21,379 bases of DNA from a virus: positions 1-21,379 of the IMG/VR virus record IMGVR_UViG_3300025131_006650; one strand, given 5' to 3'. Numbering within the stretch: the stretch's first letter is position 1; each line of letters begins with the position of its first letter. The notes under the pieces are model-generated. The model saw nothing but the letters and a program-made list of their open reading frames with translations, did no database searches and was not told the origin of the DNA. Position numbers and translations under genes: made by a program. This document shows, one piece after another, positions 4,704 through 19,421 of this stretch.

Positions 4704-6586
4704 CTAAAAAGTATACAGTTCTCCACTCCCATTCTGAGTACAGCTTAATGAGAGGGCTGCCCTCTTGTGGAGATATAAAAGAGCGCATTACCGAAATAGG
4801 GTCTAGCGCTTGTGCGATAACTGACCATAACGGTGTCAGTGGGTGTATGGATTTTGATCATGAGATGAGAGAGGGGGAGATAAAAATAAAGCCTATATTG
4901 GGCAGCAAATTCTCCATATGTAGGGATAAGGTAACTCGCCAAGTGTCAACCAATCGTGCTCTTGACCATCAAATCATACTGGCTAAAAATCTTGCCGGTT
5001 GGAAAGACCTACTTAAGCTTACAAGTGTAGCTAATCAGAAAGAACACTACTACTGTAAGCCTCGCCTTGACATGGAATCTATAGTGGAATATGCTAATAA
5101 GGGTAATTTGATTTCCTTTAGCGGACACTTGGGATCTACCCTAGCTAATGAGATTAGCTGTGATGGGGAACTAGTAGATAATTGGAAAAATATGGGGATG
5201 AGAAAGGCCCTAGAGCTACAGAGTATGTTCGGGAAGGGCAACTTTTTCATTGAGATCCAACTGATTGATCGTGGCAACGAAAAAATGGAGACAATGGCGG
5301 GCTGTATGCGAGACATCGCGGCAACTACGGGTATCCCAGTGGTCGCCACTCCGGCGTCCCGCTATTGCCGTCAGGAAGACGCGGGCGACCAAAGGGTGCT
5401 CCTGTGCACATCTTATAAAACATCGCTCCCAGAGGTCTCTCACGAGCTAAAAACGGGTGAGGCGAACGATACCCTCAGTACCTTTTTCGGCTCTGACAAC
5501 TATCACATCCCAACCTATGAAGAAATGGCCGAACTCCACACCCCAGAGGAGCTAGGTAACACCAATTTGATTGCAGATATGTGCGAAGATTATAGCGTGA
5601 CCAATCCCCTTGATCCCCCAAAATTCAAGTGCCCTGATGGGATGAGCCCAGAGGACTACTTGAGAAAGTCTTGTGGGATTGGCTGGGTAGAGAAGATGGG
5701 TCATGTTAAAAAAGGAACGGAACTATTTAAAGAATACGGAGACAGAGTAAATGAAGAGCTTGGAACTTTTGGACCCATTGGATTATCTAGCTATTTCCTT
5801 ATTGTTAATGATATTATTGACTTTGTAAAAAGTAGGGGATATCTGACTGGCGTAGGCAGAGGATCGAGCAGTGGCTGTATGATTTCTAACCTGTTGGGGA
5901 TTACTCAAGTTGATCCTATACCTTATGATTTGATGCTTAGTCGATTCTATAATACAGGCAGAAATACTCCGGGTAAAATCTCTTGGCCTGATATCGACTT
6001 TGATATACCCAAGCGTGCTCGTGATGAGGCTATTGAGCATGTTCGAACTAAATACGGCGAAGATAAAGTAGCTCAAATTATTACCTTCCAAACCCTTGCG
6101 GGGAAAGCAGCCCTGACTAGGGTGATGCAGTCTCGTGGGAATATCGACTTCGCGGAGCAAAAGGCTTTAACCAAGCACATCGAAGATACCAGCAAGATCG
6201 CTGATGAGCTTAAAGGGATTGAAGACGAATACGGCGTCTCTTCTCCTATTATGTGGGCTTTAGAGAATAAGCGGGGTAAACTTAAAGAGTGGTGCTATAT
6301 AGGAAAGGACGGCAAGTTAGAGGGGAGATTTGCAAAGATCTTTGAGCAGGCTATTCGTCTTGAAGGCACCAAGATTATTTCGGGGCGTCACGCCGCAGGC
6401 GTTGTGGTATCTAATAATCCTATTAGCGATGTTGCTCCGATGGTATTAGACAATAAGGGTAAGATCTATTTGGCGGGCCTCGAAGGTCCGTGGTGCGAGG
6501 CGGCTGGATTACTCAAGCTAGATTGCTTGGGCCTCAGAACACTAGACAAGACAATGGATGCAGTTAAAATTGTGGGAGGAGAATAG
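4700..6586 (+). CDS. dnaE: DNA polymerase III alpha, N-terminal fragment (PHP + palm)
   Basis: The first of two chains that together make a C-family replicative DNA polymerase. Starting from GTG, the 628-aa product has an N-terminal PHP domain with HSHSEYS (H9, H11) and ITDHN (D42, H43), so the metal ligands at these motifs look intact, unlike in E. coli DnaE. The polymerase palm follows: GVGRGSSSG (phosphate-binding motif), PDIDFD with D433 and D435 matching E. coli D401/D403, then QIITFQTLAGKAA. The third catalytic aspartate is D608 in LKLDCLGLRTL, matching E. coli D555. The chain ends only 20 residues later, at VGGE followed by TAG. Fingers, helix-hairpin-helix and OB regions are absent here and are encoded separately at 8236-9861. 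No intein N-terminal block follows the break. The protein should be inactive alone and need its partner chain. Confidence 0.9.
   Translation: MTKKYTVLHSHSEYSLMRGLPSCGDIKERITEIGSSACAITDHNGVSGCMDFDHEMREGEIKIKPILGSKFSICRDKVTRQVSTNRALDHQIILAKNLAGWKDLLKLTSVANQKEHYYCKPRLDMESIVEYANKGNLISFSGHLGSTLANEISCDGELVDNWKNMGMRKALELQSMFGKGNFFIEIQLIDRGNEKMETMAGCMRDIAATTGIPVVATPASRYCRQEDAGDQRVLLCTSYKTSLPEVSHELKTGEANDTLSTFFGSDNYHIPTYEEMAELHTPEELGNTNLIADMCEDYSVTNPLDPPKFKCPDGMSPEDYLRKSCGIGWVEKMGHVKKGTELFKEYGDRVNEELGTFGPIGLSSYFLIVNDIIDFVKSRGYLTGVGRGSSSGCMISNLLGITQVDPIPYDLMLSRFYNTGRNTPGKISWPDIDFDIPKRARDEAIEHVRTKYGEDKVAQIITFQTLAGKAALTRVMQSRGNIDFAEQKALTKHIEDTSKIADELKGIEDEYGVSSPIMWALENKRGKLKEWCYIGKDGKLEGRFAKIFEQAIRLEGTKIISGRHAAGVVVSNNPISDVAPMVLDNKGKIYLAGLEGPWCEAAGLLKLDCLGLRTLDKTMDAVKIVGGE
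6574..6582 (+). promoter_or_regulatory. Strong Shine-Dalgarno at the polymerase split
   Basis: GGGAGGAGA, about seven bases before the ATG at 6587. It is built from the last sense codons of the polymerase fragment (Val-Gly-Gly-Glu), so the end of that protein is shaped by the next gene's ribosome binding site. Confidence 0.7.
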
Positions 6587-6745
6587 ATGGTAAATTTACT
6601 TGCAGAGTACTCTTTATCGGCCCAACTTAATCATTTAGATGAACATAAATGGGAAATACTTGCTATCATGGTAATCGTTCCTGTGGTGGGTCCATTGGTG
6701 GCTTCCGTTTTCGTTCGATTATGCTTTGGACATTGGCCGAAGTAA
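6587..6745 (+). CDS. 52-aa single-span membrane protein
   Basis: A short gene starting at the base directly after the polymerase fragment's TAG, with a strong Shine-Dalgarno (GGAGG, spacing 7). The peptide has a polar first half (about residues 1-22, with LNHLDEHKWE) and one hydrophobic stretch at about residues 24-47 (ILAIMVIVPVVGPLVASVFV), long enough to cross the membrane, followed by the short polar tail HWPK. There is no cleavage site, so it would be anchored. Function unknown. A membrane peptide inside a replication operon could act on the host membrane or in superinfection exclusion, but nothing in the sequence decides this. Confidence 0.65.
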   Translation: MVNLLAEYSLSAQLNHLDEHKWEILAIMVIVPVVGPLVASVFVRLCFGHWPK

Positions 6746-6746
6746 T

Positions 6747-7004
6747 ATGAAATTAACTGATATATTCAATAAGAAGCCAGAACATCACGGACTAATGTGG
6801 CGATGGCAATCAGCGTATGCGGACGCCGACGATGACCACTATGTATTATACGGTCAGTTATGGGACTTATTAAGAGGTCAAGAGGGTGATCTCGGCATAT
6901 ATAAGTACTATAAAACAGAGTACAAGGCTAAGAAAGATTTAATGAGAGCTACAAGTATATATTTAGGCAAATTAAGCAAGGAATACCTAAGAGGAGATAG
7001 ATGA
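6747..7004 (+). CDS. 85-aa hypothetical protein
   Basis: A soluble 85-aa protein, unrecognised. I start it at the ATG at 6747, one base after the previous stop; a longer form from 6726 would overlap the membrane peptide and has no ribosome site. The N-terminus MKLTDIFNKKPE is followed by aromatic and acidic residues (WRWQSAYADADDDHYVLYGQLWDLL) and a basic, tyrosine-rich helical C-terminus (YKYYKTEYKAKKDL). No cysteine, signal or transmembrane segment. It overlaps the exonuclease gene by 4 nt, and its last codons (GAGGAG at 6991-6996) form that gene's ribosome site. Confidence 0.5.
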   Translation: MKLTDIFNKKPEHHGLMWRWQSAYADADDDHYVLYGQLWDLLRGQEGDLGIYKYYKTEYKAKKDLMRATSIYLGKLSKEYLRGDR

Positions 7005-7678
7005 GAAATACAAGATGGATAATCTGCTACGACTTCGAGACAGATCTTCCCGATCCTGACGAATGTAACGTGACAGAATTGGCGGCTGTTCCTATTGATC
7101 CAGATACTTTAGAGATTAAGAAAGAGCATGCTTTTAGTGCTATGATTAAGCCTCCGGGCATCAACAAAGAAGAATACTTTACTGATGCTAGAAATAAGAC
7201 TATTAAGTGGCACGCTAATAATGCGAGCTGCACTTCAGAAGAGATAGTAGAGGGGTGGAAAAAGGGCACGGCGGAAAAAACGGCTTGGAAAAGTTTCGTC
7301 GCCTACTGCAAAAAATACGAAGTGGAAAAAAGGCCCGGTCTCTGGTATCCCCAGCCAATCCCTGCGGGGTACAATATTATAGGGTTCGACGCGGTCATCC
7401 TCGACCGTCTGGTCGATAAGCATAAAACGAAGAATCCATTCTCGGCTGTTCAAAAAATGGACATTATGGATCTAATGTTTTACTGGTTTGAGAGTTTAGA
7501 TGAACCGAATGACCTAAAAATGGACACTTTACGAAAGTGGCTGGGAATGCCATCACAGGGGTTGGCCCATACAGCTATAGCTGATGTATTTGAAGAAGCA
7601 GAACTACTTGTACGATTCCTTAAGTTTATGAGACGACAGGCTTCTGTTGAGAAATTTAAGGGGAGTTTTGCGAAATGA
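7001..7678 (+). CDS. DEDDh 3'-5' exonuclease (DnaQ-like proofreading subunit)
   Basis: Predicted to remove misincorporated 3' nucleotides for the phage polymerase. All three exonuclease motifs are visible. ExoI is YDFETD (D11, E13). ExoII is YNIIGFDAVILDRL (N125, D130), as in classic NxxxFD. ExoIII is HTAIADVFEEAELLV (H190 and D195, five apart), which defines the DEDDh rather than DEDDy group. The 225-aa length is typical of stand-alone epsilon-type exonucleases; DnaQ of E. coli is 243 aa. Its place between the two polymerase fragments suggests it works with that polymerase, since C-family enzymes lack an internal exonuclease domain in most DnaE types. No clamp-binding or PHP-binding peptide is obvious at the C-terminus. 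ATGA overlaps on both sides. Confidence 0.88.
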   Translation: MRNTRWIICYDFETDLPDPDECNVTELAAVPIDPDTLEIKKEHAFSAMIKPPGINKEEYFTDARNKTIKWHANNASCTSEEIVEGWKKGTAEKTAWKSFVAYCKKYEVEKRPGLWYPQPIPAGYNIIGFDAVILDRLVDKHKTKNPFSAVQKMDIMDLMFYWFESLDEPNDLKMDTLRKWLGMPSQGLAHTAIADVFEEAELLVRFLKFMRRQASVEKFKGSFAK

Positions 7679-8058
7679 ATAATCCATACAGAAGAGGCGG
7701 GCCGAGACCTCAAACCTTAGAGGAAAGAACGATTGAAAAATATCACCCTACTCTCAGAGACAGTGTTAAGGAAAGAATAGCGAAGTATAATTTTAAGATC
7801 CAGTTTAAAGAGCGAACTTGGGTGTTAAAAGAAGAAACCGTGTGTGGGTTCACAGGGCATACGGCTGTCAAAGCGACTCAAATAGATCCAGAGCCTTTTG
7901 GCGTACTCTCAGTCACTAGAGACAAAAAAACACAATGCTCTCAAATATGGGTGTGGTCTGACGGTGCCGCTGACGGTGCCAACTATTGGCTAGTTAATGT
8001 TCCTAATGGATTATTTAAGGAAATTCATGATGAAGAAAAAACTACAAACACTACCTGA
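7675..8058 (+). CDS. 127-aa hypothetical protein
   Basis: An unrecognised, basic-to-neutral 127-aa protein that starts in an ATGA overlap with the exonuclease stop. The N-terminal third is charged (RRGGPRPQTLEERTIEKY), the middle is rich in lysine and beta-type residues, and the C-terminal half has an aspartate/tryptophan-rich segment (SQIWVWSDGAADGANYW). The DNA for that segment holds a 12-base direct duplication (7958-7981) giving DGA-ADGA. No cysteine pairs, signal peptide or membrane span. The final 32 nt overlap the next zinc-ribbon gene. Function cannot be given. Confidence 0.5.
   Translation: MNNPYRRGGPRPQTLEERTIEKYHPTLRDSVKERIAKYNFKIQFKERTWVLKEETVCGFTGHTAVKATQIDPEPFGVLSVTRDKKTQCSQIWVWSDGAADGANYWLVNVPNGLFKEIHDEEKTTNTT
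7958..7981 (+). repeat. 12-base tandem duplication inside a coding region
   Basis: Two copies of CTGACGGTGCCG side by side (second copy differs at its last base), in frame, giving the peptide repeat D-G-A. It probably arose by slippage. Confidence 0.6.
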
Positions 8059-8239
8059 ATTCAATGATCACCGAAGAAAACTTTACTCTCAAGATGGACC
8101 ATATTTAAACGGTATAGAATGTCCTATTTGCTTTTACGAGCTATATGATATAAATGACGGTACTGTTATGTGTAGTAGTCCCCCGCAAGTTAGTATAACA
8201 TGTTTTCAGTGCAAATGGAGTGGGACCAGAATAGCATGA
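8027..8239 (+). CDS. 70-aa zinc-ribbon protein
   Basis: Starts at the in-frame double ATG at 8027-8032 with AAGG at 8017-8020; an upstream ATG at 7997 lacks a ribosome site. The peptide has a basic N-terminus (MMKKKLQ), then C32-x2-C35 (CPICFYEL) and C59-x2-C62 (CFQCKWSG), a standard zinc ribbon, with C49 between. The TCFQCKWSGT ending is typical of a zinc ribbon's second knuckle. The stop is overlapped by the second polymerase fragment's start (ATGA). Function unknown; it may bind nucleic acid or a polymerase subunit, but this is inference from position. Confidence 0.65.
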   Translation: MMKKKLQTLPEFNDHRRKLYSQDGPYLNGIECPICFYELYDINDGTVMCSSPPQVSITCFQCKWSGTRIA

Positions 8240-9861
8240 TTGAATTCCCCTGCGGCTGCAAATTTGAAGAGAACGAAAAAGGTCGCCCTATCTTCGATCC
8301 CAATATCTATAGTATCCCTCTTGATTGTGAAGCTACTTGGGACATGATAAGCAGTGGGAATACTAAGGGCGTATTTCAACTTGACTCCCAATTAGGCCAA
8401 GGGAAAGCGGCAGAGATTAAGCCAAGGAATATAGCAGAACTATCAGATCTTATCTCGGTCATTAGGCCGGGCACAGCTAATGCTATGCTTGATGGGAAGT
8501 CTCTTACTAAGCACTATATAGATAGAAAAGCGGGGAGAGATGAGGTAAAGTACTTCCACCCTGCGTTAGAGGGCGTACTTAAATCAACTTACGGCATCCT
8601 TGTATATCAAGAGCAAACCCTCCGCATAGCTAGAGATATAGCTGGGTATTCCCTACAGGAAGCTGAACTCCTTAGAAAAGCATTGGGTAAGAAGAAAATT
8701 GAGTTGATGGCTGAAATCGAGGAGACCTTCATCGCTCGGTGTATTGCTAAAGGTATCGTCTCAGAGAATGATGCTAAGGAAATCTTCGGCTGGATCAAAG
8801 AGGGTCAGAACTACCTGTTCAACAAAAGCCACGGCATCTCTTACGCCTACAACGCCTATCAAACTGCCTACACAAAGGCCCATTTCCCCAGAGCGTTCCT
8901 TACTTCATGGCTTCGTCATGCTGATGGAAAGATCAAGCCTTTACTCGAAGTTAATGAGTTAATCAATAATGCCCGCTTCATGGACATAGAAGTTTTACCT
9001 CCTTGCATACTTAACATGAATTTAGCCTTCTCTTTGGTTGATGAAAAGCCAGCGTTCGGTTTAACTAGTATCAAGAACGTGGGCGAGATAGTGTATCAAA
9101 AGATAAAAGGAGTAGTCAAGGACAATGGGTACCACCTGAGTGATATGGGATGGGGAGAGTTCCTCATGCGGATTGGCCGTTTTATCAGAACGGACTCTTT
9201 CACTAACCTAATCTCTGCGGGAGCGCTAGACTGCTTCTCAGTGAGCAGGAATAGAATGCTTTACGATTTCGGCATGTATCGAGACCTAAGAGATCCCCAT
9301 AAAGACTTCCTTGTCGAAGACGATTCTTTGACGTTCACAGATGGGCTTAAGAACCTTATTTCCTATCTTGAGAACCTTGAAGACAGAAACGCTCATACTG
9401 ATAGGTATATTGAAGAGGCAAAGGGTTATATTGTAGCTATAAATAGTCCCCCATACTCCTTAGTTGATATGCCTGCGTGGAAAGGTAAACTTGAGAAAGA
9501 GCTTCTCGGGATTGAAATGACAGGTTGTGAACTAGATGAATACGATACGGGACAGGCTAATTGTACGTGCTTGGAGTATGTCAAGGGATTTGATGCAAAG
9601 AATATCAGAATTGCCGCCCAAATCACAGATGTGAGAGAGTGGAAGATAAAAGCTGGGAAGAACAAGGGAAATGCTATGGGATTTCTAAAGATAGATGATA
9701 TGACTTGCTCTATGGATAATATAACTATCTTCTCACAAGAGTGGGAGAAGTGTAAGAAAGAAGCGATAGAAGGTGCGGTTGTGATACTAAGAGGCTCTAA
9801 GGATAAAAACCGGGGAGATTTCTTGGTAAAAGGGGTGCAAAAACTTAAACGATGTGTATAA
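8236..9861 (+). CDS. dnaE: DNA polymerase III alpha, C-terminal fragment (fingers + HhH + OB)
   Basis: The second chain of the split C-family polymerase, 541 aa from an ATG at 8236 in an ATGA overlap. An extension from 8200 is open but has no ribosome site. After a short non-family head (EFPCGCKFEENEKGRPIFD) it picks up the DnaE sequence at SIPLDCEATWDMI, the segment that follows the catalytic D555 helix in E. coli (IPLDDKKSFDML). The fingers come next: NTKGVFQLDS (about 42-51) and ISVIRPGTANAML. Then YQEQTLRIARDIAGYSLQEA, KALGKKK and FNKSHGISYAYNAY (F195-N196...), an uninterrupted version of the block where cyanobacterial DnaE carries its split intein. A tandem helix-hairpin-helix region (LTSIKNVGE) and an OB-fold (RIAAQITDVREWK onward, about 457-541) complete it. 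No tau-binding tail is apparent. Confidence 0.9.
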   Translation: MIEFPCGCKFEENEKGRPIFDPNIYSIPLDCEATWDMISSGNTKGVFQLDSQLGQGKAAEIKPRNIAELSDLISVIRPGTANAMLDGKSLTKHYIDRKAGRDEVKYFHPALEGVLKSTYGILVYQEQTLRIARDIAGYSLQEAELLRKALGKKKIELMAEIEETFIARCIAKGIVSENDAKEIFGWIKEGQNYLFNKSHGISYAYNAYQTAYTKAHFPRAFLTSWLRHADGKIKPLLEVNELINNARFMDIEVLPPCILNMNLAFSLVDEKPAFGLTSIKNVGEIVYQKIKGVVKDNGYHLSDMGWGEFLMRIGRFIRTDSFTNLISAGALDCFSVSRNRMLYDFGMYRDLRDPHKDFLVEDDSLTFTDGLKNLISYLENLEDRNAHTDRYIEEAKGYIVAINSPPYSLVDMPAWKGKLEKELLGIEMTGCELDEYDTGQANCTCLEYVKGFDAKNIRIAAQITDVREWKIKAGKNKGNAMGFLKIDDMTCSMDNITIFSQEWEKCKKEAIEGAVVILRGSKDKNRGDFLVKGVQKLKRCV

Positions 9862-9873
9862 TAAGGATATAAT

Positions 9874-10332
9874 ATGGATGATGCCATTAAAGAACATATG
9901 GGGCTTGTAAAGACCATAGTCGAAAGATTCAATCCAAAAAACGATACGATCAGAGAAGATTTGATTTCTGCGGGTACAATTGGATTATGGAAGGCTCTAG
10001 AGAAGTATGATGAAAGCAAAAACAAGGGCGGCAAGATCTCTACCTTCCTATGGAATCCTATCAGGTGGCATGTAATACATGAGATGAAAAGGATTAAAAA
10101 GGGATCAGCGGTAAGCCTATCTAAATGCCCTGAACCTATAGCTCCAATAGATTCGCAACTCTGGGAGTATATGGATTCACGGACTATCACTGATGAGGAA
10201 AGAAAAATAGTAGCCCTCAGAGCAGAAGGTTACAAATTTAGGGAAATCGGATATGAAATCGGCAAGACTAAAGCCGCCGCAGAAAATAAATTCTACAGAA
10301 CTATCAGAAAAATCAGGAAACTAAATGGCTAA
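9874..10332 (+). CDS. Sigma-70-family RNA polymerase sigma factor (phage type)
   Basis: A 152-aa sigma-like protein that would redirect host RNA polymerase to phage promoters. Region 2 covers roughly residues 5-75. It includes LVKTIVERF, the typical EDLISAGTIGLWKALEKYD of region 2.1-2.2, and ISTFLWNPIRWHVIHEMKR for the DNA-melting part of region 2.3-2.4. A linker follows, then region 4 (about 105-150), with a helix-turn-helix at KFREIGYEIGKTKAAAENKF. Regions 1 and 3 are missing, giving the compact region 2 plus 4 form seen in ECF-like and phage sigma factors. AAGGAT lies just upstream of the ATG. It overlaps the first glycosyltransferase gene by 8 nt. Confidence 0.85.
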   Translation: MDDAIKEHMGLVKTIVERFNPKNDTIREDLISAGTIGLWKALEKYDESKNKGGKISTFLWNPIRWHVIHEMKRIKKGSAVSLSKCPEPIAPIDSQLWEYMDSRTITDEERKIVALRAEGYKFREIGYEIGKTKAAAENKFYRTIRKIRKLNG

Positions 10333-11965
10333 AAAGAAGGTTTTGTTTGTCGCTGAGTCGCACAAACTAGCGTCTGGCTTTGGCACATATGCAAACGAAA
10401 TCCTACCATTACTTCATGCAACAGGTAAATACGAACTTGCTGAGTTCGCATGCTACTCTAGTGCTGAGATGTTTTCAGACACAGACTGGTTGATATACGC
10501 TAATGCTCCGTCTACTGCGGACGGCGAAGCATATGACAAAGAACACACTAGCAATACGGCTGTGCAATGGGGCATCACAAGACTTGAGTACGCAATTTTA
10601 GACTTCAAGCCGGATGTAGTATTGGCATATAGAGATCCTTGGATGGATGCTTATATAGCTGATAGCTCCCTGTTGCCATTTTTCAATTGGGTATGGATGC
10701 CTACCGTTGACAGTGCCCCTCAAAAAACAGAATGGTTGCACTGGTTTAATAGATGCGATAAACTCCTTACTTATTCAGAGTTCGGAGTTAAAACACTCAA
10801 GGATCAAACACGGGGAAGACTCTCACCTGAAGGGTGCGCCTCTCCATTTCTAGACTATACCCTGTTTGATATAGTAGCTGACAAGAAGAAACATAAAGCT
10901 TCTATGGGGCTAGATCCAGAATCGTTCATTGTTGGCTCAATAATGCGCAATCAAAAGCGCAAGATGTTTCCAGAGTTGATGAAATCTTTTAAGCGATTCA
11001 CAGAGGAGGCCCCAAAGGAAATATCCGAGAGGGCGTTCTTATACCTGCATACTAGCCACCCAGAGAGATTCGGTTGGGATATTACCTCACTGACCCATGA
11101 GTATGGTCTAGGTTCTAAACTGCTATGCACATACACATGCCAAGGATGTAGCAAATTCTTTATATCTCACTATCGAGACGCTATCTCAATATGCAGTCAT
11201 TGTGGGCGAAACTCAGCAGTCCTTCCCGGTGTTACGAATGGCCTTAGTTATTCAGACCTACCTAAAATATATAATGTAATGGATCTATACGTGCAGTACG
11301 CGATAACCGAGGGATTCGGATATCCTGTAATGGAAGCAGCCGCCTGTGGCGTTCCTACCGCTGCTATAGATTATAGCGCGATGGAGGATACTATCCATCA
11401 CACAAAGGGGTACCCTATAAAGGCTAATCTTGCTAGAGAGCTTGAAACAAACGCTGATCGGTCAGGCCCTAACAATGATGCCTTGGTTAAAATATTCCAT
11501 ACCCATTCTAAGAAAACACCCCAACAAATTAAGAAGATGCGGCTTGAAGCGAGAAAAGGATGCAAGAATAGGTATACCGCAAAGAATGCTGTTAAAGCTT
11601 GGGAAGAAGCGATAGATAATAGCAAGAATAAATTGCCGTGGAATCATCCAAGGTTAATGAGGCTGCTACCAGCAGGACCGCCAGAGGGCCTATCTAACCA
11701 GCAGTTTTGTGAATGGATATGCTCCTCACTAGTCCAAGACGAATATCACCTGTTCAATTATAAGATGCTATCTATGTTGCGGGATTTAAACTTCGGTGCC
11801 TCTGTATCTAAGGATATGATAGAGAAGTGTGACCATAAGACCCTATTCGAGGAGAACGCTAGTTTAGCCAAAAGACGACTCCACTATGATATGGTGAGGT
11901 GCGGAGATCTCCAAGTACAGCCCCCAAGATTTATAACGGAAGCGCATAATAGGATGAAAAAATAA
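10325..11965 (+). CDS. GT4-type glycosyltransferase with an inserted zinc ribbon
   Basis: A GT-B-fold glycosyltransferase, 546 aa, expected to move a sugar from a nucleotide donor to an unknown acceptor. The N-terminal Rossmann domain begins with VLFVAESHKLASGFGTYANE, with a glycine-rich loop after the first strand. The C-terminal donor domain has the retaining-GT4 motif E-x7-E (E329 and E337 in EGFGYPVMEAAACGVP), followed by AIDYSAMEDT. Between them the C-terminal domain carries C272-x2-C275...C290-x2-C293 (TCQGCSKF and CSHCGRNS), a zinc ribbon placed just before the catalytic motif. About 120 further residues at the C-terminus are helical and unrecognised. It overlaps the sigma factor upstream and, by one base (TAATG), the next gene. 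Confidence 0.8.
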   Translation: MAKKKVLFVAESHKLASGFGTYANEILPLLHATGKYELAEFACYSSAEMFSDTDWLIYANAPSTADGEAYDKEHTSNTAVQWGITRLEYAILDFKPDVVLAYRDPWMDAYIADSSLLPFFNWVWMPTVDSAPQKTEWLHWFNRCDKLLTYSEFGVKTLKDQTRGRLSPEGCASPFLDYTLFDIVADKKKHKASMGLDPESFIVGSIMRNQKRKMFPELMKSFKRFTEEAPKEISERAFLYLHTSHPERFGWDITSLTHEYGLGSKLLCTYTCQGCSKFFISHYRDAISICSHCGRNSAVLPGVTNGLSYSDLPKIYNVMDLYVQYAITEGFGYPVMEAAACGVPTAAIDYSAMEDTIHHTKGYPIKANLARELETNADRSGPNNDALVKIFHTHSKKTPQQIKKMRLEARKGCKNRYTAKNAVKAWEEAIDNSKNKLPWNHPRLMRLLPAGPPEGLSNQQFCEWICSSLVQDEYHLFNYKMLSMLRDLNFGASVSKDMIEKCDHKTLFEENASLAKRRLHYDMVRCGDLQVQPPRFITEAHNRMKK

Positions 11966-13050
11966 TGACTAAGAAGGATGTATTATATGTGGGGCCGTAT
12001 AGGCAAACGGACGATTGGGGATGTACTAGCAAGGCTCTCCTTCAACTACTTACCCTTCAAGAAGATTTAAATGTAGTGGCGAGACCTGTTTGGTTCAATA
12101 ATCAAAGAGGTCAAGGGCTTGCTCAAGATCTAGAGGCTAGTGAGAACAATACACTTCAAGGGACGCACGATGTAGTTATTCAGCATGGAATACCCACCAA
12201 TCTGAATTACAATGGGAACTTCAAAGAGAACATCGCCGTACTAAGTCTCGATTGCAACATATCGAATACAGAGTGGCCGACGCACTTAAACCTATTCGAT
12301 AGGGTGATTTGCTTCAGTAGGTTTGAAGAGATTATACTCTTAGAGTCTAAAGTAACCACTCCAATTGAATCTTTTAACCATCCTCCGTTTTTTATAGAAG
12401 CAAGAAAGACCTCTTTGGACTATGACTATACAGGAACAAAGTTTTATACAACGGGCTCGGCTGAACCGAAGTCAGGACTTGTAGAAACGATGGCGGCGTT
12501 TCTGTCAGGGTTTAGTATATCTGATGAGGTGATCCTAATAATAGCTACAAGTAATAGCGATAAGGTGTCAAAGTTAGCTGAGCACATTAAGCATTCCCTT
12601 GGTATATACAAAGACCACAAAAGATATCCCAATATCGCAATAGTCAATACTACAGATCCCACAGTTATGAACTACCTCCATGACATTTCAGACTACTTTA
12701 TTGATCTGTCTTATAACGCGAAGGTCTCACAAGCACAATTAGCAGCTATCTCCTATAACAACCATGTGATAACGACAAGTCATATTGGGCTTGGTGTTTT
12801 TAATGATAATTATTCCTTTAGAGTGAGCCACACTAACGAGATACAGTTATGTCCAGAAAGACCACTAGATGACCTATATACTGGAGAGCACTGTTGGACT
12901 TGCCCAAGTATAAGATCAGCACAGGAAGTAATGCAGTATGCCTACGCACACGGGCCTAACGAGCATGACAAAGAGATGCTAGAAAAAATCAAGTCCCAAA
13001 TGTTCATCCACCCCCATGCAAGGATTAAGGAAATATTATGTATACAATAG
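11965..13050 (+). CDS. Glycosyltransferase-like protein (GT-B fold likely)
   Basis: A 361-aa cytoplasmic protein with GT-B-like alternation of strands and helices. Seen: DVLYVGPYRQTDDWG at the N-terminus (first Rossmann strand and loop); FDRVICFSRFEEIILL with following SFNHPPFF, the pattern found before the inter-domain linker of GT-B enzymes; FYTTGSAEPKSGLVETMAAF, typical of the start of the donor domain; and FIDLSYNAKVSQAQLAAISY near the place of the usual donor loop. No E-x7-E motif, so mechanism and donor are open. The next gene starts inside this one (13-nt overlap, AAGGAAA ribosome site). I am fairly sure of the fold class, not of activity. Confidence 0.6.
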   Translation: MTKKDVLYVGPYRQTDDWGCTSKALLQLLTLQEDLNVVARPVWFNNQRGQGLAQDLEASENNTLQGTHDVVIQHGIPTNLNYNGNFKENIAVLSLDCNISNTEWPTHLNLFDRVICFSRFEEIILLESKVTTPIESFNHPPFFIEARKTSLDYDYTGTKFYTTGSAEPKSGLVETMAAFLSGFSISDEVILIIATSNSDKVSKLAEHIKHSLGIYKDHKRYPNIAIVNTTDPTVMNYLHDISDYFIDLSYNAKVSQAQLAAISYNNHVITTSHIGLGVFNDNYSFRVSHTNEIQLCPERPLDDLYTGEHCWTCPSIRSAQEVMQYAYAHGPNEHDKEMLEKIKSQMFIHPHARIKEILCIQ

Positions 13051-13955
13051 AAGGGGTAATACAGCGGGCTGTCGGACGAAAAAGATTAAAGATCCTATTA
13101 CTTCATGAGTTATTCGATGGCTACATAGAGAATCTAGCGCTCCTGCCCCATGACTTCTATATCATAACCGATTTTCACACAGGCCCACAATGGGTAAGTG
13201 AAACTACTCCCGCCAATCTACATGTGTCAAAAGGACTTGGAGAGACATGTGTTAAGAACTTCGACCTAATCATATGCTTTGGAAGAGGTAACATATGTGA
13301 TAAAGCGGAAGAGCTATCAGCCTTATGGCACGTCCCTATAGTCATTGTGGATATCGTTGGAGCGGCTGTCCTTTCACCATCTCCGTTCTTCAGCCAAATA
13401 CATATAGACCATGAAAGAATTTTATTCGAGCGCAATGCTATAGCATCAGTTGCGGTAGATGATTCAATAAAAGAATCTTGGGTCTCTAGCGGAACTCCAA
13501 TCACTGTGACAATCGAACATGTCATTAATACCTTCGATGTTAATCCAGAAGCGACAAAAATATTGATAGACCCGTATCTGCCAAAAGCATATATAGATAG
13601 CTTGCCTATAGATATAAATAATACCATCTTCACTACTAACGTGGCAGAGGCGGCGATATACCTTCACCTATGGCAATCGACCACACCTAAGATGCTTAAT
13701 TGTATCAAATCTAAGTTGCCGGTGGTTACATTTAAAAGTGATGATATGCTGGATCTCTTGGAAAAGAACCTATGTATCACAATAGAAGACCTTAGAGATA
13801 TTTCTCCAACCTTTATTCAGGAACTAAAAGGGTTTGAAAAAATAGAGCACGTAATGGAGCAAGTTGATATGTACCAATCCTCTTCTATAGCAGAGTTCAT
13901 AAACAGGTGGGAAAACATAATTGATTACACAAGACACAGTTTCTATATAAAGTAA
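13038..13955 (+). CDS. Probable degenerate GT-B-like protein, function unknown
   Basis: A 305-aa protein in the glycosyltransferase block. The N-terminal half has Rossmann-like strands (RLKILLLHELFDG, FDLIICFGRGN, VPIVIVDIVGAAVL). The C-terminal half ends in the donor-domain-like AAIYLHLWQSTTPKMLNC followed by KLPVVTFKSDD, similar to the way GT-B enzymes close their sugar-binding pocket. Neither an E-x7-E motif nor a clear catalytic base is visible, so it may be a non-catalytic partner or an uncharacterised transferase. No signal peptide or membrane helix. AAGGAAA just before the ATG supports the start, inside the upstream gene. Followed after 8 nt by the methyltransferase-like gene. Confidence 0.5.
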   Translation: MYTIEGVIQRAVGRKRLKILLLHELFDGYIENLALLPHDFYIITDFHTGPQWVSETTPANLHVSKGLGETCVKNFDLIICFGRGNICDKAEELSALWHVPIVIVDIVGAAVLSPSPFFSQIHIDHERILFERNAIASVAVDDSIKESWVSSGTPITVTIEHVINTFDVNPEATKILIDPYLPKAYIDSLPIDINNTIFTTNVAEAAIYLHLWQSTTPKMLNCIKSKLPVVTFKSDDMLDLLEKNLCITIEDLRDISPTFIQELKGFEKIEHVMEQVDMYQSSSIAEFINRWENIIDYTRHSFYIK

Positions 13956-13963
13956 GGAAGAAG

Positions 13964-14365
13964 ATGAAGACTAAAAATGTTAGGGTGATGATTAATAAGC
14001 AGATTGATGGGGACAAGACCGATGTAGAGATGGCGAATGCCCCTGACGCTTGGTTCACAGAGATCAAGGTGGTCGATGCGCTAGAGAGATCTGAAGACGA
14101 CAATATCCTAGAGAACCTGTGTTCAAAAGTCAAGCTTGGTGGTAAGATAATTCTTAGTGGAATAGACGCCCACGAGATCTGCCGCAGAGTGCATTATGGT
14201 AAGCTGGGATTGGCAGCGGCAGCAGAACATCTATTCAAGAATGCTAATAGGTTAAACTCAATCGCGGACCTTAAAGATTATCTTGTTAATCAAAAGAAAT
14301 GGAAAATTTTATTCGCCGGTCTACAAGACGGCAGGTATCTAGTCGAAGCCGAAAGAAATCAATGA
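13964..14365 (+). CDS. Truncated or degenerate SAM-methyltransferase-like protein
   Basis: A 133-aa protein resembling the C-terminal half of a class I SAM-dependent methyltransferase. EIKVVDALE followed by ILENLCSKVKLGGKIILSGIDA matches strand 4, the helix, and the LKpGGxhhh strand 5 that these enzymes share. The glycine-rich SAM-binding motif I that would precede it is missing, and so are most of the first 60 residues of the fold. Catalytic competence is therefore doubtful; it may have become a structural or regulatory part of the glycan cassette. AAGGAAGA precedes the ATG. The last bases overlap the next gene's ATG (ATGA). Confidence 0.5.
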   Translation: MKTKNVRVMINKQIDGDKTDVEMANAPDAWFTEIKVVDALERSEDDNILENLCSKVKLGGKIILSGIDAHEICRRVHYGKLGLAAAAEHLFKNANRLNSIADLKDYLVNQKKWKILFAGLQDGRYLVEAERNQ

Positions 14366-15204
14366 ATGACAAAAAAGAAGAACTCATCATAAGCCAAATA
14401 CATACTCCGTGCAAGGAATGTGTCTTCGCCATGTGGAAAAAATCCACACAGATAGGGTGCAAGCTAGGAAGAATCGAGGCATATAGAAACGCCGGGATTG
14501 AGGTAATGGAAGTTTACGATGATACAGATAGAGAGTTCTGCCTGATAAACGGGAGGGTGTGCCTGTCCTACAGGACAGAAGCCGTCATGAGTGACCACCC
14601 CAAGCAGTGCTGGGAAGAAATAGTAAGACTCCAAACAAAGATCCCTTATCAGGCTATAGTTTTTATAAATAAAGAAGACACGGTCACTACTATAAAGGCA
14701 TCTATAAAAAGATTAAAGGCCCAAGATGTCCAGCCCAACCTAGTAACCTTTGTTAATAAGCAATACTTGCTCTACTCTGAAGACCCAGATAAGTACACTA
14801 AGCCAAGCACAATGTTGGAGTGCCTACAAAACGCAGAGTTCCATCAGTTCAACTTCAAGAACGTCTATGACGAGACCCTTGATGATAGGAGCTTGATAGA
14901 TCTGGTATTCGATAGTACGAAGAACCTTCCGTATCCCTTCTATGTTTCGTTTGATGCATCATTTGATATTCCACAGGGGTTCAGTAAAGAGCTGAATGAG
15001 TCTGTATCTATGAAGATGATCCAGCTAGGATTCGCTTCACCAGTAGATGGGATTAACGGAATGATCGTCAATAGGATAGCTCATAAGAAACACGCCGGTA
15101 ATAGCTTTGGTGTTAACATAGAGAAGAAGATAGAGGCTAATGAAGATGAAGGTCACAAATTCATATTTAAGGCGGTAGATATATGTCCAAGTTTAAAGTC
15201 TTAA
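14362..15204 (+). CDS. Cysteine-cluster protein with possible GT-A-like domain
   Basis: A 280-aa protein starting at the ATGA overlap at 14362; a longer form from 14299 would run inside the upstream gene. The N-terminal region has a compact cysteine set: C17-x2-C20 (CKECVFAMW), C33 (QIGCKLGR), C60 and C67 (GRVCLSYR), which could hold zinc or an iron-sulfur cluster. The second half begins YQAIVFINKEDTVTTIKASI, like the first strand and helix of a family-2 (GT-A) glycosyltransferase, and continues with LVTFVNKQYLL and PFYVSFDASFDIP, the latter with aspartates that could stand for the metal-binding DxD. The C-terminal part is cut short relative to GT2 enzymes. The next, smaller gene may supply the rest. 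Assignment tentative. Confidence 0.5.
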   Translation: MNDKKEELIISQIHTPCKECVFAMWKKSTQIGCKLGRIEAYRNAGIEVMEVYDDTDREFCLINGRVCLSYRTEAVMSDHPKQCWEEIVRLQTKIPYQAIVFINKEDTVTTIKASIKRLKAQDVQPNLVTFVNKQYLLYSEDPDKYTKPSTMLECLQNAEFHQFNFKNVYDETLDDRSLIDLVFDSTKNLPYPFYVSFDASFDIPQGFSKELNESVSMKMIQLGFASPVDGINGMIVNRIAHKKHAGNSFGVNIEKKIEANEDEGHKFIFKAVDICPSLKS

Positions 15205-15554
15205 GCAATATAAACGATAATCTAGATAAGGTAATCCCCGATGAGATCTGCTTCTTTATTGACGAGAAAACAACGATAACAGAAGAGAATATGGATCGAA
15301 TGGCTGCTGAGTTCAAAGATCCTAAGATAGGCTTCGTTTATACAGATGCAGTAATAAAAACTGAGGAGTACTCCTTTGTCGAGTACCTTAGTGGGAAGGA
15401 TTTACCTGATATAGCTTTCGCTATGAGGGTTCCCGAGGGTATAACTTTAGAGAAAGTCAACGGAGAGTCTAAGTCTTTACTAATGAGACAACTTGCCGCA
15501 TATGGACTTTATTTCATACATATAGCAGATCCTCTTATAGAAATAAATGAATGA
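15183..15554 (+). CDS. Small GT-A-like fragment
   Basis: A 123-aa protein that overlaps the preceding gene by 22 nt, with AAGG upstream of the ATG inside that gene. The segment IPDEICFFIDEKTTITEENM and the following FKDPKIGFVYTDAV resemble the middle of family-2 glycosyltransferases (strand, acidic turn in place of DxD, helix, then a strand ending in a tyrosine). LLMRQLAAYGLYFIHIADPL is compatible with the end of such a domain. Full GT2 enzymes are twice as long, so this looks like half of a transferase and may act with the 280-aa protein encoded just before it. It could also be a decayed remnant; the coupled, well-spaced start argues that it is still made. Confidence 0.45.
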   Translation: MSKFKVLSNINDNLDKVIPDEICFFIDEKTTITEENMDRMAAEFKDPKIGFVYTDAVIKTEEYSFVEYLSGKDLPDIAFAMRVPEGITLEKVNGESKSLLMRQLAAYGLYFIHIADPLIEINE

Positions 15555-16252
15555 GTATCAGACATATAAAGGCCATCAATAGGCCAAATGAAATAGATAT
15601 AATAATACCGGCGGCTGGGCTAGGGAGAAGAATGAAATCCTACGGCCCTAAGTCGCTGATAAAAATAGCTGACAATGAAACGATCCTGAGTCGCCAACTC
15701 AAAATCCTAAAAGCCACGATCCCGAACTCTAACATCATATTGGTATGTGGATTTGAGGCCAATAGGTTAATGAACAAGTCACCGGACGACATAATTAAGA
15801 TTGAGAATGAGAGATACCAAGAAACGAATGTGGCTCGCAGTATAGGGATGGGACTCAGGGCGTCTTCTAAAGATGTGCTAGTAGTGCATGGAGATCTAAT
15901 TTTTAACCAAGCCTGCATAGAAGAATTGAATCTAAATAGATCTTCTACTGTAATCGGCACGGATATAATGGGGAAGGGAGAAGTGGGCTGTGTACACAAT
16001 AACAATCGCTTAGAGAGCATGATGTTTGACCTAGAGCCTAGATGGAGTCAGATAACATTCTTTACAGGTAGAGAGTTGGCCTCTTTGAAGAAGATATGTT
16101 GGAATAGAGAGAACGACTTGCTTTTCGGATTTGAGGTCATCAATAAAATCATTAGCGCTGGAGGCAAGATAAAAACTGTCACCGCCAAGAACGCGAAGGT
16201 TATAGATATAGATATGTCGAAGGATATACTTAAAGTCAAGGATATAGTATGA
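15551..16252 (+). CDS. Nucleotidyltransferase of the sugar-/choline-phosphate type (LicC-like)
   Basis: A 233-aa NTP-transferase that would activate a sugar-1-phosphate, phosphocholine or similar compound by coupling it to a nucleotide, making a donor for the neighbouring transferases. Visible motifs: IIIPAAGLGRRM (residues 17-28), the G-x-G-x-R signature; then PKSLIKI (33-39), with K34 as the likely phosphate-binding lysine. NERYQETNVARS (86-97) corresponds to the substrate-recognition loop of LicC-type enzymes. VVHGDLIF carries the metal-binding D115, and VIDIDMSKDIL near the end carries the second metal aspartate. No acyltransferase or left-handed helix domain follows, which favours the short LicC/RmlA-core form. 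The exact substrate is not decidable. ATGA overlaps at both ends. Confidence 0.8.
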   Translation: MSIRHIKAINRPNEIDIIIPAAGLGRRMKSYGPKSLIKIADNETILSRQLKILKATIPNSNIILVCGFEANRLMNKSPDDIIKIENERYQETNVARSIGMGLRASSKDVLVVHGDLIFNQACIEELNLNRSSTVIGTDIMGKGEVGCVHNNNRLESMMFDLEPRWSQITFFTGRELASLKKICWNRENDLLFGFEVINKIISAGGKIKTVTAKNAKVIDIDMSKDILKVKDIV

Positions 16253-17043
16253 AGATAGTAATCAGTGCAAAAAACTCCTCTCACCCTAAAGTTCAAGGGT
16301 TAGCTCAGGCATTAGCTACGGACCATCAAGTGGGGTACTGGGCAGTAGAAGAATCTCCCTTGGTAGATATGATAACTAGACAGTCTCCTGACCTATTTAT
16401 AGCAGATGACGAGGACAAGACTGTTGAGTACCTTATCGATGACGAAGATTTCAAGAGCACTAAGATAGTGACACTAAACACTAAAAAGAAGAGGCTTGAG
16501 AATCACTCTGGGCTAATCATTAATCTAGAAGAATTTACCGGGATGACTATGACCGATTTATTCGTTCCTTATAGCTCAAACGATTTTCTAGCTGGAGGTG
16601 AACCAACTCGACAGTATATGGCAGACATAACAGTATTCACAGATGGTATGGAGGATGTGAAATTCTCTGAATGGATATCCGCCCTTGCGTGTAAGTACAC
16701 AGTAAAGGCTTACGGCTCACATCAGCCTAGCTTAATAGAATATTTGGGTAGCCCAGATACCGAAGACTATAAAAAGATACTAGCCTCGGGAAGAGTGGGG
16801 ATAGCGTTCGATGAGCGATGGCTTCCTGACATCAGTAGGGCAGGGATGATTCCGCTCCTTTACACTCTCGCCCCTTCCACTCATTGGGAGTTTTCCACAT
16901 ATAAGGAGTTAGCAGAGGCGTGTTCTCACGTTACGAACCCAGAGTTTTACACATATTTATGGGCAGAGGGGCTTAGGGATAAATACGAGAAAGAGACCTA
17001 CGGTAAAATTGCCAAGTCTATACTTGAAAGGATATTCGAATGA
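16249..17043 (+). CDS. GT-B-like protein of the glycan block, unknown specificity
   Basis: A 264-aa cytoplasmic protein. It opens with KIVISAKNSSHPKVQGLAQA, a Rossmann-type first strand and helix, and contains the probable second-domain start at ADITVFTDGM (about 125-134). YKKILASGRVGIAFDERWLP followed by DISRAGMIPLL is similar to the donor-site stretch of CgeB-like and other GT-B proteins, where a motif of this kind surrounds the nucleotide sugar. It is short for a two-domain GT-B enzyme and shows no E-x7-E. It may be a reduced transferase or an accessory. Coupled by ATGA to the nucleotidyltransferase upstream and to the next gene downstream. Confidence 0.5.
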   Translation: MKIVISAKNSSHPKVQGLAQALATDHQVGYWAVEESPLVDMITRQSPDLFIADDEDKTVEYLIDDEDFKSTKIVTLNTKKKRLENHSGLIINLEEFTGMTMTDLFVPYSSNDFLAGGEPTRQYMADITVFTDGMEDVKFSEWISALACKYTVKAYGSHQPSLIEYLGSPDTEDYKKILASGRVGIAFDERWLPDISRAGMIPLLYTLAPSTHWEFSTYKELAEACSHVTNPEFYTYLWAEGLRDKYEKETYGKIAKSILERIFE

Positions 17044-17483
17044 TAGGTGTTATAACAAACACTGTAATGAGTGACCCTGAAAACCATTTGATATTCAAGG
17101 CATTAAACGAGCTTTCTAAAGATACTAACTGTTTCTTATTCACTAATATAGTTCAGTCACTACCTTGCCCCCACAAGTTTGCTATAATGCAGCAGGTGGA
17201 GGCGCTAAGTCACAAAGGTATTTTGATTAGTACAGATATCATAACTTCACAAATACTAAAAAACAACCTGATGGCAAAGAAGAAATACTACTATGTGTGG
17301 GGGCCTGAGTGGAGGAACCTAAGCAACTTCTCCCCAAACCAACTCGGTAGCATATTCTACAACGATGAAGTATCATTGATTGCCAGAAGTGTATCACACC
17401 ACTCCATGCTATCTGGATTATTTAAAGAGCCAGAGCACGTAGTGTATAATTGGAACGTAAATGAAATGAGGAAAATATTATGA
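17040..17483 (+). CDS. 147-aa hypothetical protein of the glycan block
   Basis: An unrecognised protein starting MIGVITNTVM, a hydrophobic first strand, followed by a helix (LIFKALNELS) and a second strand (CFLFTNIV), as in the first part of a Rossmann-like domain. A third segment, GILISTDIITSQIL, and the motif KKYYYVWGPEWRNL look conserved in character (aromatic, Gly-Pro). It is too short for a full GT-B enzyme and may represent an isolated N-terminal domain. ATGA overlaps with both neighbours tie it to the cassette. Function cannot be stated from sequence. Confidence 0.45.
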   Translation: MIGVITNTVMSDPENHLIFKALNELSKDTNCFLFTNIVQSLPCPHKFAIMQQVEALSHKGILISTDIITSQILKNNLMAKKKYYYVWGPEWRNLSNFSPNQLGSIFYNDEVSLIARSVSHHSMLSGLFKEPEHVVYNWNVNEMRKIL

Positions 17484-18295
17484 GCAAAAGTAAAAAGAGA
17501 AGTAACCCCGGTGAGTTCTTCACCCTACCAGAAGAAGAGAGACTTGAGACTTATGAGCTACTTTATTATGAGTCTAAGAATAGCTGGGCCGAGATAGCCA
17601 AACTTCTAGGCACATATCCAAACAAGGCAAGACGAGACGCTGCTAAGCTAGGTATGTCCTCTAGGGATAAGTCTAAGGCTCAGCAGCTCGCTATATCAGA
17701 AGGTAGGTGTGAACATCCGACTGAGGGGAAACAGCAGTCAGAGAAAACCCGCATCAAGATCAGTGAAAGTCAAGGTAAAGTATGGGACGACCTCAGTGAG
17801 GAGGATCGGGAGTATCGATCAGAAATAGGCAAGAAGTCTTGGGATGATAAGACAGATCTAGAGAAAGAGAACTTTTTCAAGAAGTCTGTTGACGCTATTC
17901 AGAAGGCTTCTAAAGAGGGATCAAAAGTAGAGTTGGAGCTGTTCAATTACTTAATAGAGGAAGGATATAAAGTACTAAAGCATAAGGAGCACTTCCTAAA
18001 GAACGAAAAATTCCACCTTGACTTATACCTGCCGGAACAACGTATAGCAATCGAGGTTGATGGGCCAATGCACTTCAAGCCTGTGTATGGAGAGGAGAAA
18101 CTTAACAAGCGACAGGCGGCGGATTCCTCCAAGAACGGGCTGGTTTTATCAGGAGGGATGGTATTAATCAGGGTAAAGTTAGATAAGAGGCAATCGCAAA
18201 GGTATATACGATCTCTTAAGGCTAAGCTATTAGGTCTTATTAAAGAGATAGGAATTAAGTTCCCAATAGAAAATGAAAGGTATTTTGAAATATGA
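17480..18295 (+). CDS. DUF559/Vsr-like endonuclease with NUMOD-like region (candidate free-standing homing endonuclease)
   Basis: A 271-aa protein with three parts. Residues 35-60 (SWAEIAKLLGTYPNKARRDA) form a probable helix-turn-helix. Residues 78-120, with GKQQSEKTRIKISESQGK, resemble NUMOD3-type DNA-binding repeats of homing endonucleases. The C-terminal nuclease domain (about 148-255) has E151/E153, D181 in FHLDLYLPEQ, and E192-x-D194...H198 in IAIEVDGPMHF. This matches the Vsr-related DUF559 fold, in which the ExD and H residues serve metal-dependent DNA cleavage. This architecture fits free-standing phage homing endonucleases; a repair or DNA-processing role is the alternative. Unlike many homing genes it is fully coupled (ATGA both sides), suggesting it has been part of the operon for some time. 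Confidence 0.7.
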   Translation: MSKSKKRSNPGEFFTLPEEERLETYELLYYESKNSWAEIAKLLGTYPNKARRDAAKLGMSSRDKSKAQQLAISEGRCEHPTEGKQQSEKTRIKISESQGKVWDDLSEEDREYRSEIGKKSWDDKTDLEKENFFKKSVDAIQKASKEGSKVELELFNYLIEEGYKVLKHKEHFLKNEKFHLDLYLPEQRIAIEVDGPMHFKPVYGEEKLNKRQAADSSKNGLVLSGGMVLIRVKLDKRQSQRYIRSLKAKLLGLIKEIGIKFPIENERYFEI

Positions 18296-19026
18296 GTAAA
18301 GATGATATGAAGGTTACTGATATGGTAGAAGAAGTTATTGAAGAAGCTACTCCCCACCTGATGGGGAACGTCCCCATGTTGAACACTGTCGAGTGGGCAG
18401 AATATATCCTAAACCAACTGTTCGATAGCGAGCTTGTTATGGGCTCCCCTACAACAGATGGGTTAAGAAGAGTTGCTGATAATGTGTTTGGTGAGATCTT
18501 AGAGTCTAACTCTACAGTCTTAGAAGTCCCTACTCGGGCCGCTAATGCGAAGGCAACGGTCCAACACACCCTTGTAATTAGGAAGTACAGTACGGGCTCT
18601 CTTATTAAGGTTGGAGCCTGTGTTGACGTACTATGTGATAAACTACCTCATCCATTTAATCAGCACTTAATATCTACAGCCTGCACTAGAGCAGAAGGAA
18701 AAGCTTTAAGGCGCGCTTTAAAGATTCGCGTACAAACAGCCGAAGAACTATCAAACTCCGAGGACATTGAGGACATGACGAAAAACGATCCGCTAACCGA
18801 TCAGCAAATACTTGCCATTAAGCAAATGTGTAAGAGGAATAATGTTGATCTGGTGAAACTTCTGAAGGATAACTCAGAAAAGAATAAGACGATTAAAGAC
18901 ATTAAGAATATTGAGGGCCGACATATCATGAACAAACTCTCCCACTACCAAAGAGAAGGTACCCCGGAAGAGTTCACTGGTTATGATGAAGGCTGGGCTG
19001 ATAGTAAATTTGGAGGTAATAAATAA
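18292..19026 (+). CDS. Putative single-strand DNA annealing protein (Rad52-like group)
   Basis: A 244-aa protein that probably binds single-stranded DNA and promotes annealing in phage recombination. The best clue is STACTRAEGKALRRALKIR (about 128-146), a motif shared by phage annealing proteins annotated as Rad52/22-like, followed by the TAEEL link. The C-terminal region DPLTDQQILAIKQMCKRN with a later IEGRHIMNKLSHYQ is the helical module often found at the end of these proteins. The N-terminal half has a hydrophobic strand (ATVQHTLVIRKYSTGSLIKV) compatible with the beta-sheet core. I see no Walker motif, so it is not a Sak4/RecA type. It lies directly after the endonuclease and before a zinc-binding protein. 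Confidence 0.55.
   Translation: MSKDDMKVTDMVEEVIEEATPHLMGNVPMLNTVEWAEYILNQLFDSELVMGSPTTDGLRRVADNVFGEILESNSTVLEVPTRAANAKATVQHTLVIRKYSTGSLIKVGACVDVLCDKLPHPFNQHLISTACTRAEGKALRRALKIRVQTAEELSNSEDIEDMTKNDPLTDQQILAIKQMCKRNNVDLVKLLKDNSEKNKTIKDIKNIEGRHIMNKLSHYQREGTPEEFTGYDEGWADSKFGGNK
19013..19017 (+). promoter_or_regulatory. Consensus Shine-Dalgarno before the 131-aa gene
   Basis: GGAGG, eight bases before the ATG at 19026. It is embedded in the final codons of the annealing-protein gene, whose TAA shares its last base with that ATG. Confidence 0.6.
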
Positions 19027-19421
19027 TGAGAGTTAAAGTAGAAGTAACTGATGGTCTTTGGGTGGAAGAAGATGTTGATAAAGAAGTTGATGCATTTAAA
19101 ACCATCGCCAGAATAACAGAACTCTTCAAGCACAGTGAATGTGGAATGTGCAAATGCAAGGATGTAAAATTTGTTTGTCGTCAAGACAAAAGTGAGAACG
19201 ACTGGATTGAGGTTGTGTGTAATGACTTCAAAAACTGCGGAGCGAAACTGATTTTCGGTCAAAAGAAAGGTAAAGGCGGCGAGATTTACCCCAAGATCAG
19301 ATGGAACAATCTTTCTGAAACACAGCAGAAGGAAAGGCACGAGGAAGAAGAGTATTCGGAGAAGCATTTTGGATTCCTGCCCAACAAAGGCTGGTTCATC
19401 TATAAGCGTAAGACCGACTAA
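19026..19421 (+). CDS. 131-aa zinc-finger protein, unknown function
   Basis: The last gene of the plus-strand train. The N-terminal 35 residues are acidic (VEEDVDKEVDAFK). A central metal site is likely formed by C39-x2-C42-x-C44 (ECGMCKCKD), C51 (FVCRQ), C65 (VVCNDF) and C70 (KNCGAK). The region CGAKLIFGQKKGKGGEIYPK and the ending LPNKGWFIYKRK resemble a family of small phage and cyanobacterial proteins with a cysteine finger and a terminal GWxxY motif, whose role I do not know. TAATG start overlap and a strong GGAGG ribosome site point to high translation. An intrinsic terminator follows 25 nt after the stop. Confidence 0.6.
   Translation: MRVKVEVTDGLWVEEDVDKEVDAFKTIARITELFKHSECGMCKCKDVKFVCRQDKSENDWIEVVCNDFKNCGAKLIFGQKKGKGGEIYPKIRWNNLSETQQKERHEEEEYSEKHFGFLPNKGWFIYKRKTD

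Follow-up and report, generated by a model that had tools for sequence, protein, structure and literature searches.

A nine-gene glycosyltransferase cassette in the replication region of uncultured phages as a candidate cytoplasmic glycosylation machine

The window analysed here, which is the entire 21,379-base IMG/VR record IMGVR_UViG_3300025131_006650 from a virus, carries a cassette of nine genes (A to I) at positions 10325-17483. We propose that these genes encode a soluble cytoplasmic glycosylation machine built around A, a GT4 glycosyltransferase, and that a virion protein is the likeliest acceptor, a reading to which we give somewhat less than an even chance. As reported in a preliminary description of the window, all nine open reading frames (ORFs) are present; they overlap or abut, with 4-base overlaps at five junctions (D/E, F/G, G/H, H/I, and I with the following HNH gene). 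At least 15 other divergent phage contigs carry orthologues of all nine genes in unchanged order, placed between a split DnaE polymerase (with a sigma-like gene) and a trio of HNH, annealing-like, and single-stranded-DNA-binding-like genes; 16 divergent loci, including the window, were gathered for every gene. This shared order, together with synonymous change far exceeding non-synonymous change where measurable, excludes chance ORFs. The nine genes are as follows.

10325..11965, plus strand: A, GT4 glycosyltransferase of 546 amino acids with an inserted zinc-ribbon motif (Pfam and PHROG)
11965..13050, plus strand: B, GT-B-fold protein of 361 amino acids (AlphaFold2, Foldseek and motif comparison)
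13038..13955, plus strand: C, probable degenerate GT-B-like protein of 305 amino acids, fast-evolving (profile-profile comparison; orthologues in 16/16 loci)
13964..14365, plus strand: D, probable methyltransferase remnant of 133 amino acids (orthologues in 16/16 loci)
14362..15204, plus strand: E, protein of 280 amino acids whose four cysteines are invariant, with a GT-A-like core (cysteine motif; partial AlphaFold2 model)
15183..15554, plus strand: F, truncated GT2 derivative of 123 amino acids (full GT2 in the same slot of distant cassettes)
15551..16252, plus strand: G, small nucleotidyltransferase of 233 amino acids (PF12804)
16249..17043, plus strand: H, probable degenerate GT-B-like protein of 264 amino acids, in the fastest-evolving class (orthologues in 16/16 loci)
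17040..17483, plus strand: I, protein of 147 amino acids, possibly an isolated GT-B N-terminal domain as judged by eye (orthologues in 16/16 loci)

Catalytic signatures of the cassette proteins

Gene A matched PF00534 with 46.3 bits (cut-off 26.4) and PHROG 2170 with an E-value of 4e-20, in agreement with the GT4 enzyme of the preliminary description. The RNQxR motif and the E329-X7-E337 pair were invariant in all 88 distinct sequences, and the four cysteines of the inserted ribbon were found in 81 of the 88. By these sequence features, A is an intact GT4 enzyme with a GT-B/GT4 C-terminal domain bearing E-X7-E. One relative of A (L040:2741-5593) contains an intein-like insertion of ~400 amino acids placed exactly at this catalytic E-X7-E (YAI-C-EGFG) motif.

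The claim of a nucleotide-activating enzyme was likewise borne out, as G scored 41.7 bits against PF12804 (NTP_transf_3), with a cut-off of 27. The residues GxGxR, K34, N86/N93, D115, and D219/D221 were retained in 16/16 close relatives, as was the GD motif, and G is, judged by these residues, an intact nucleotidyltransferase in the window clade. Its best PDB relatives were GlmU (1e-6), PntC (7e-6), LicC (2e-5), and IspD (3e-5), which share with G the GxGxR...K signature; all of these matches were partial, however, and the NCBIfam equivalog cut-offs were not approached. The distant cassettes of L134 and L137 additionally encode epimerases, an HddA-type heptose kinase, and a GDP-fucose-synthase-like protein. 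Because of these sugar-pathway genes, the donor appears likelier to be a nucleotide-sugar than to carry a phosphocholine-like group; between the two options raised at the outset, the sugar is thus favoured and phosphocholine is no longer the leading idea.

Pfam, PHROG, and PDB profile searches with B and E gave nothing useful. The AlphaFold2 model of B (mean predicted local distance difference test score (pLDDT) of 86) matched GT4 structures in Foldseek, with 3oy2 at an E-value of 3e-9 and a probability of 1.00, and the modelled GT-B fold was thereby confirmed; the B profile also matches a separate phage GT4. The E-X7-E pair was absent from B in 16/16 members of the window clade; the freshwater and most of the marine relatives retain it. 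The other proteins described as GT-B-like (C, H, and I) are likely to be so. None had a family match, including in Pfam for C; in a profile-profile comparison, C weakly resembled the C-terminal half of B (43.8% probability) as well as A. An all-against-all profile comparison of A to I returned weak links only.

For the GT-A-like proteins, the support came from two directions. The start of E is most likely at 14362, where an ATGA overlap joins it to D, and not at 14299, the start of the longest ORF. The CxxC...C...C pattern of E was invariant, and a partial AlphaFold2 model (mean pLDDT 58) yielded a core that matched GT-A enzymes, namely GT2-type enzymes and IspD/TarI, with a probability of 1.00 but with TM-scores near 0.3. 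No DxD was invariant among 16 members, and the placement of the site is uncertain. The slot of F is occupied in distant cassettes such as L144 by a full-length GT2 with DDGSTD (PF00535, 5e-23), which argues that F is a shortened counterpart. The methyltransferase remnant assigned to D is weakly indicated by its orthologue in the distant contig L127, where Methyltransf_12 was matched with an E-value of 0.0035, below Pfam's cut-off.

Graded catalytic decay and rapid divergence

An IMG/VR scan with the A profile detected 493 stretches that encode A relatives, the top 80 being retained, and a scan with G detected 69 loci. Among 50,697 GenBank phages, the only isolate matches to A were the distant GT4 proteins of the Synechococcus phages S-CBS4 and S-EIVl (21-25% identity), and a literature search found no match for the cassette or the phage group. 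A glycosylation block of several genes is thus a constant component of the replication region in this phage group, which counts at least hundreds of members in metagenomes and lacks a close isolated representative. The contigs of the relatives are fragments. In close relatives, A, E, and G were about 50-60% identical to the window proteins, and the values fell to 16-40% for F and H (18-30% for H).

Clades and motifs were read along the tree of A; the names 'freshwater' and 'marine' are clade labels of convenience and do not derive from sample metadata. The freshwater clade has a B with E-X7-E/D, a full GT2 with DDGS as F, and an intact G. In an intermediate group, B and G are retained and F is shortened. 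Only the signatures of A and G and the cysteines of E persist in the window clade, where B and F are degenerate. The marine clade, with contigs up to 230 kb, is missing E and F and has a G without GxGxR, while most of its B copies keep E-X7-E. Among the loci with a scored G, G was intact wherever E was detected (58/58) and lost wherever E was not detected (21/21); the co-loss is clustered in one clade and may reflect just one event, and an unassigned ORF stands at the position of E in L149 and L225. The cassette at L173:8001-12321 is reduced: A, E, G, H, and I were the only genes detected.

In the window clade, then, only A and G appear to keep complete catalytic signatures, and E is probably degenerate. 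The preliminary picture of a cassette with its own activating enzyme is upheld by the gene content and has to be qualified for B, which lacks its signature, and for F and probably E, which are degenerate in this clade. The remaining genes are kept despite the graded decay, which fits structural subunits. It is possible, although on balance doubtful, that the cassette is an ancient complex of one active GT4 and pseudo-glycosyltransferases that lost catalysis lineage by lineage and now serve as fast-diversifying specificity subunits. Among the relatives, cassettes grade naturally from catalytically complete to degenerate, a series that makes the function of pseudo-glycosyltransferases testable.

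The cassette proteins also diverge rapidly. Across five genome pairs, their median identities were 37-55%, compared with 64-93% for other shared proteins (Mann-Whitney p from 5e-5 to 0.01, with genes treated as independent, one extra paralogue in the G005/G007 set, and some F genes unlabelled). The lower conservation was driven by B, C, D, F, and H, which are among the fastest-evolving shared proteins, with divergence at least equal to that of neighbouring tail proteins and far greater than that of replication genes. Between L051 and L053, the non-synonymous divergence (dN) of polC was 0.038 and that of B, C, and H was 0.49-0.62, with synonymous sites mostly saturated. The ratio of non-synonymous to synonymous divergence (dN/dS) was mostly 0.1-0.45 where synonymous divergence (dS) was measurable and substitutions were not few.

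These values bear on the idea that the accessory genes are functionless remnants in decay, which the lost catalytic motifs of B and F and the missing family matches might suggest. We consider it very improbable and set it aside, as the order and open frames of all nine genes are kept in the 16 divergent loci and dN/dS lies mostly in the range given above.

Candidate acceptors of the transferred group

The cassette lies within a replication and recombination block beside a deoxynucleoside monophosphate kinase gene, a placement that recalls DNA glycosylation in phage T4. The alpha- and beta-glucosyltransferases of T4 have the GT-B fold and are encoded among replication genes, and the T4 genes for beta-glucosyltransferase and deoxycytidylate hydroxymethylase are direct neighbours close to that of the polymerase. 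The cassette might thus glycosylate or otherwise hypermodify phage DNA, through a base hydroxylase outside known families; a deoxyuridine or deoxycytidine hydroxymethylase from an unrecognised family is conceivable. In contrast to T4 and its gp42, no hydroxymethylase or Tet/JBP partner was found for the cassette, which comprises nine genes including a nucleotidyltransferase. As the preliminary description had observed, no thymidylate or cytosine hydroxymethylase was recognised among the window genes. A family search found PF00303 in only 6/45 contigs, and the five PF00303 proteins examined carry the thymidylate-synthase Asn at the position where T4 gp42 has Asp. Tet/JBP (PF12851) was not found in 14 contigs, which may be incomplete.

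Restriction palindromes provided further evidence. GCGC was absent from G001 (130 kb; about 152 expected) and from G005 (73 expected), and was fully absent also in G012, G013, L004, L033, and L041. GATC was absent in L104, L126, and L148 (0 against about 43 expected), ACGT was absent in L127 and L136, and TCGA occurred once against 32 expected in L003. The separation into GCGC-free and GATC-free relatives suggests different host restriction systems. Some lineages have lost sites that contain T and others sites that lack it, which makes general shielding by modified C or T improbable in these relatives, and the full purging implies that the sites are exposed to restriction, a strong if indirect argument that falls short of decisive. 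Depletion in the window is mild (GCGC 19 against 37 expected) and a T4 control is partly depleted of GATC, so that the palindrome argument rests on the relatives. By these sequence comparisons, DNA glycosylation is disfavoured; we rate it as quite improbable and have dropped it as the leading idea. For uncultured phages, restriction-site counts offer a cheap way of telling whether DNA or another target is modified.

A modified host-surface glycan, which would exclude superinfection or mask a receptor, would fit the fast divergence of the accessory proteins as part of an arms race at the host surface. G001 and G007 moreover carry separate large surface-glycan-like gene clusters (G001:C1:7752-20610 and G007:C1:67965-86975), recognised mostly by eye, which include HAD and nucleotidyltransferase, epimerase, and sulfotransferase-like genes. 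Known phage serotype converters (gtrA/gtrB) depend on membrane proteins: O-antigen modification of the gtr type uses a membrane flippase and a membrane-bound transferase. The proteins A to I, by contrast, have no consistent membrane or hydrophobic segment, and the cassette contains no flippase-like or polyprenyl-linked partner. Because of the missing hydrophobic segment, the target should be cytosolic and export to the host surface, one of the targets first suggested, is rather improbable.

The continuous overlapping run with replication genes suggests early expression and, with the fast evolution of the accessory genes, would suit counter-defence or host takeover, in which the cassette would make a small glycosylated or nucleotide-activated molecule or modify a host protein early in infection. 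No specific partner was found, however, and nothing tied the cassette to a defence target; we regard this explanation as unlikely.

With DNA disfavoured and the host surface unlikely, cytosolic targets remain, among which virion proteins have the best known precedent. In the scheme that we propose for virion glycosylation, G would activate a phosphorylated sugar or a similar group to a nucleotide donor, and A would transfer the activated sugar to the acceptor. Non-catalytic subunits would shape the choice of donor and acceptor: E, which combines the cysteine motif with the GT-A-like core, together with B, C, D, F, H, and I. The acceptor would be a virion protein, for which the fast-evolving tail proteins encoded convergently beside the cassette are the first candidates. 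The product of the convergent gene adjoining the cassette is, in most relatives, a protein of structural type that is large and evolves fast; its position alone makes it a candidate acceptor. Complex formation, the donor chemistry, and the virion acceptor are elements that we infer. Two further findings favour the scheme: genes for a GDP-mannose 4,6-dehydratase and a GT90 lie just upstream of the presumed terminase gene (G001:C1:46842-52118 and G005:C1:84421-86578), and the core genomes of the relatives encode a further GT4.

Several points weigh against it. The cassette region looks like a replication operon and not a structural one, in parallel with the T4 DNA glucosyltransferase genes near replication genes. 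Loss of E-X7-E is no proof of lost activity. The G of the marine clade looks inactive from its motifs, and the donor would have to come from elsewhere there. Relaxed constraint or counter-defence would also be compatible with rapid divergence.

Mycobacteriophages offer a precedent, in that phage-encoded glycosyltransferases glycosylate capsid and tail proteins, according to the part of PMC12619734 that cites Freeman et al. 2023. The mechanism proposed for the cassette is the same; the cassette differs in its far larger gene set, its degenerate members, and its placement in a replication block. Moraphages are jumbo phages whose core genes include four groups of glycosyltransferases (PMC12619734); like the present phages, they are uncultured, aquatic, and large, with glycosyltransferases as core genes. 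Moraphages have tail-sheath (contractile) genes and DNA polymerase I, whereas the present phages encode a split DnaE and a tape-measure-like protein of 3,000 amino acids. In gene content, the two groups look different.

Neighbouring genes and further observations

From the sigma-like gene through position 19421, the genes overlap or almost abut. The following features flank the cassette.

4700-6586 and 8200-9861, plus strand: split DnaE polymerase (PHROG 405 and 192 for the region 4700..9861)
7001-7678, plus strand: epsilon-like exonuclease, between the two DnaE parts
9874..10332, plus strand: sigma-factor-like gene (PHROG 351, 2e-16), with an 8-base overlap with A and syntenic within the window clade
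17480..18295, plus strand: HNH/homing-endonuclease-like gene (PHROG 559, 3e-14), downstream of I in nearly all loci
18292..19421, plus strand: two genes, Erf-type annealing-like and single-stranded-DNA-binding-like by eye, syntenic in nearly all loci

The two genes at 18292..19421 had no Pfam match above the cut-off, and an Rfam scan of the window was empty. Between L005 and L006, synonymous divergence was 0-0.02 across the cassette, compared with 0.05-0.11 in polC, the HNH gene, and the annealing gene, hinting at a recent exchange of the block, with small counts.

When E was used to scan bacterial and archaeal genomes, one contig was found, L054 (52% identity), which is binned in a metagenome-assembled genome of Lokiarchaeota and is most likely mis-binned phage DNA. 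DUF1501 genes were present in 5/14 contigs (L058-L062); this family is common in Planctomycetota, and the genes are a weak hint at Planctomycetota hosts. Finally, DNA polymerase III alpha is encoded by two genes with the epsilon-like exonuclease gene between them, and this split is kept in the relatives.

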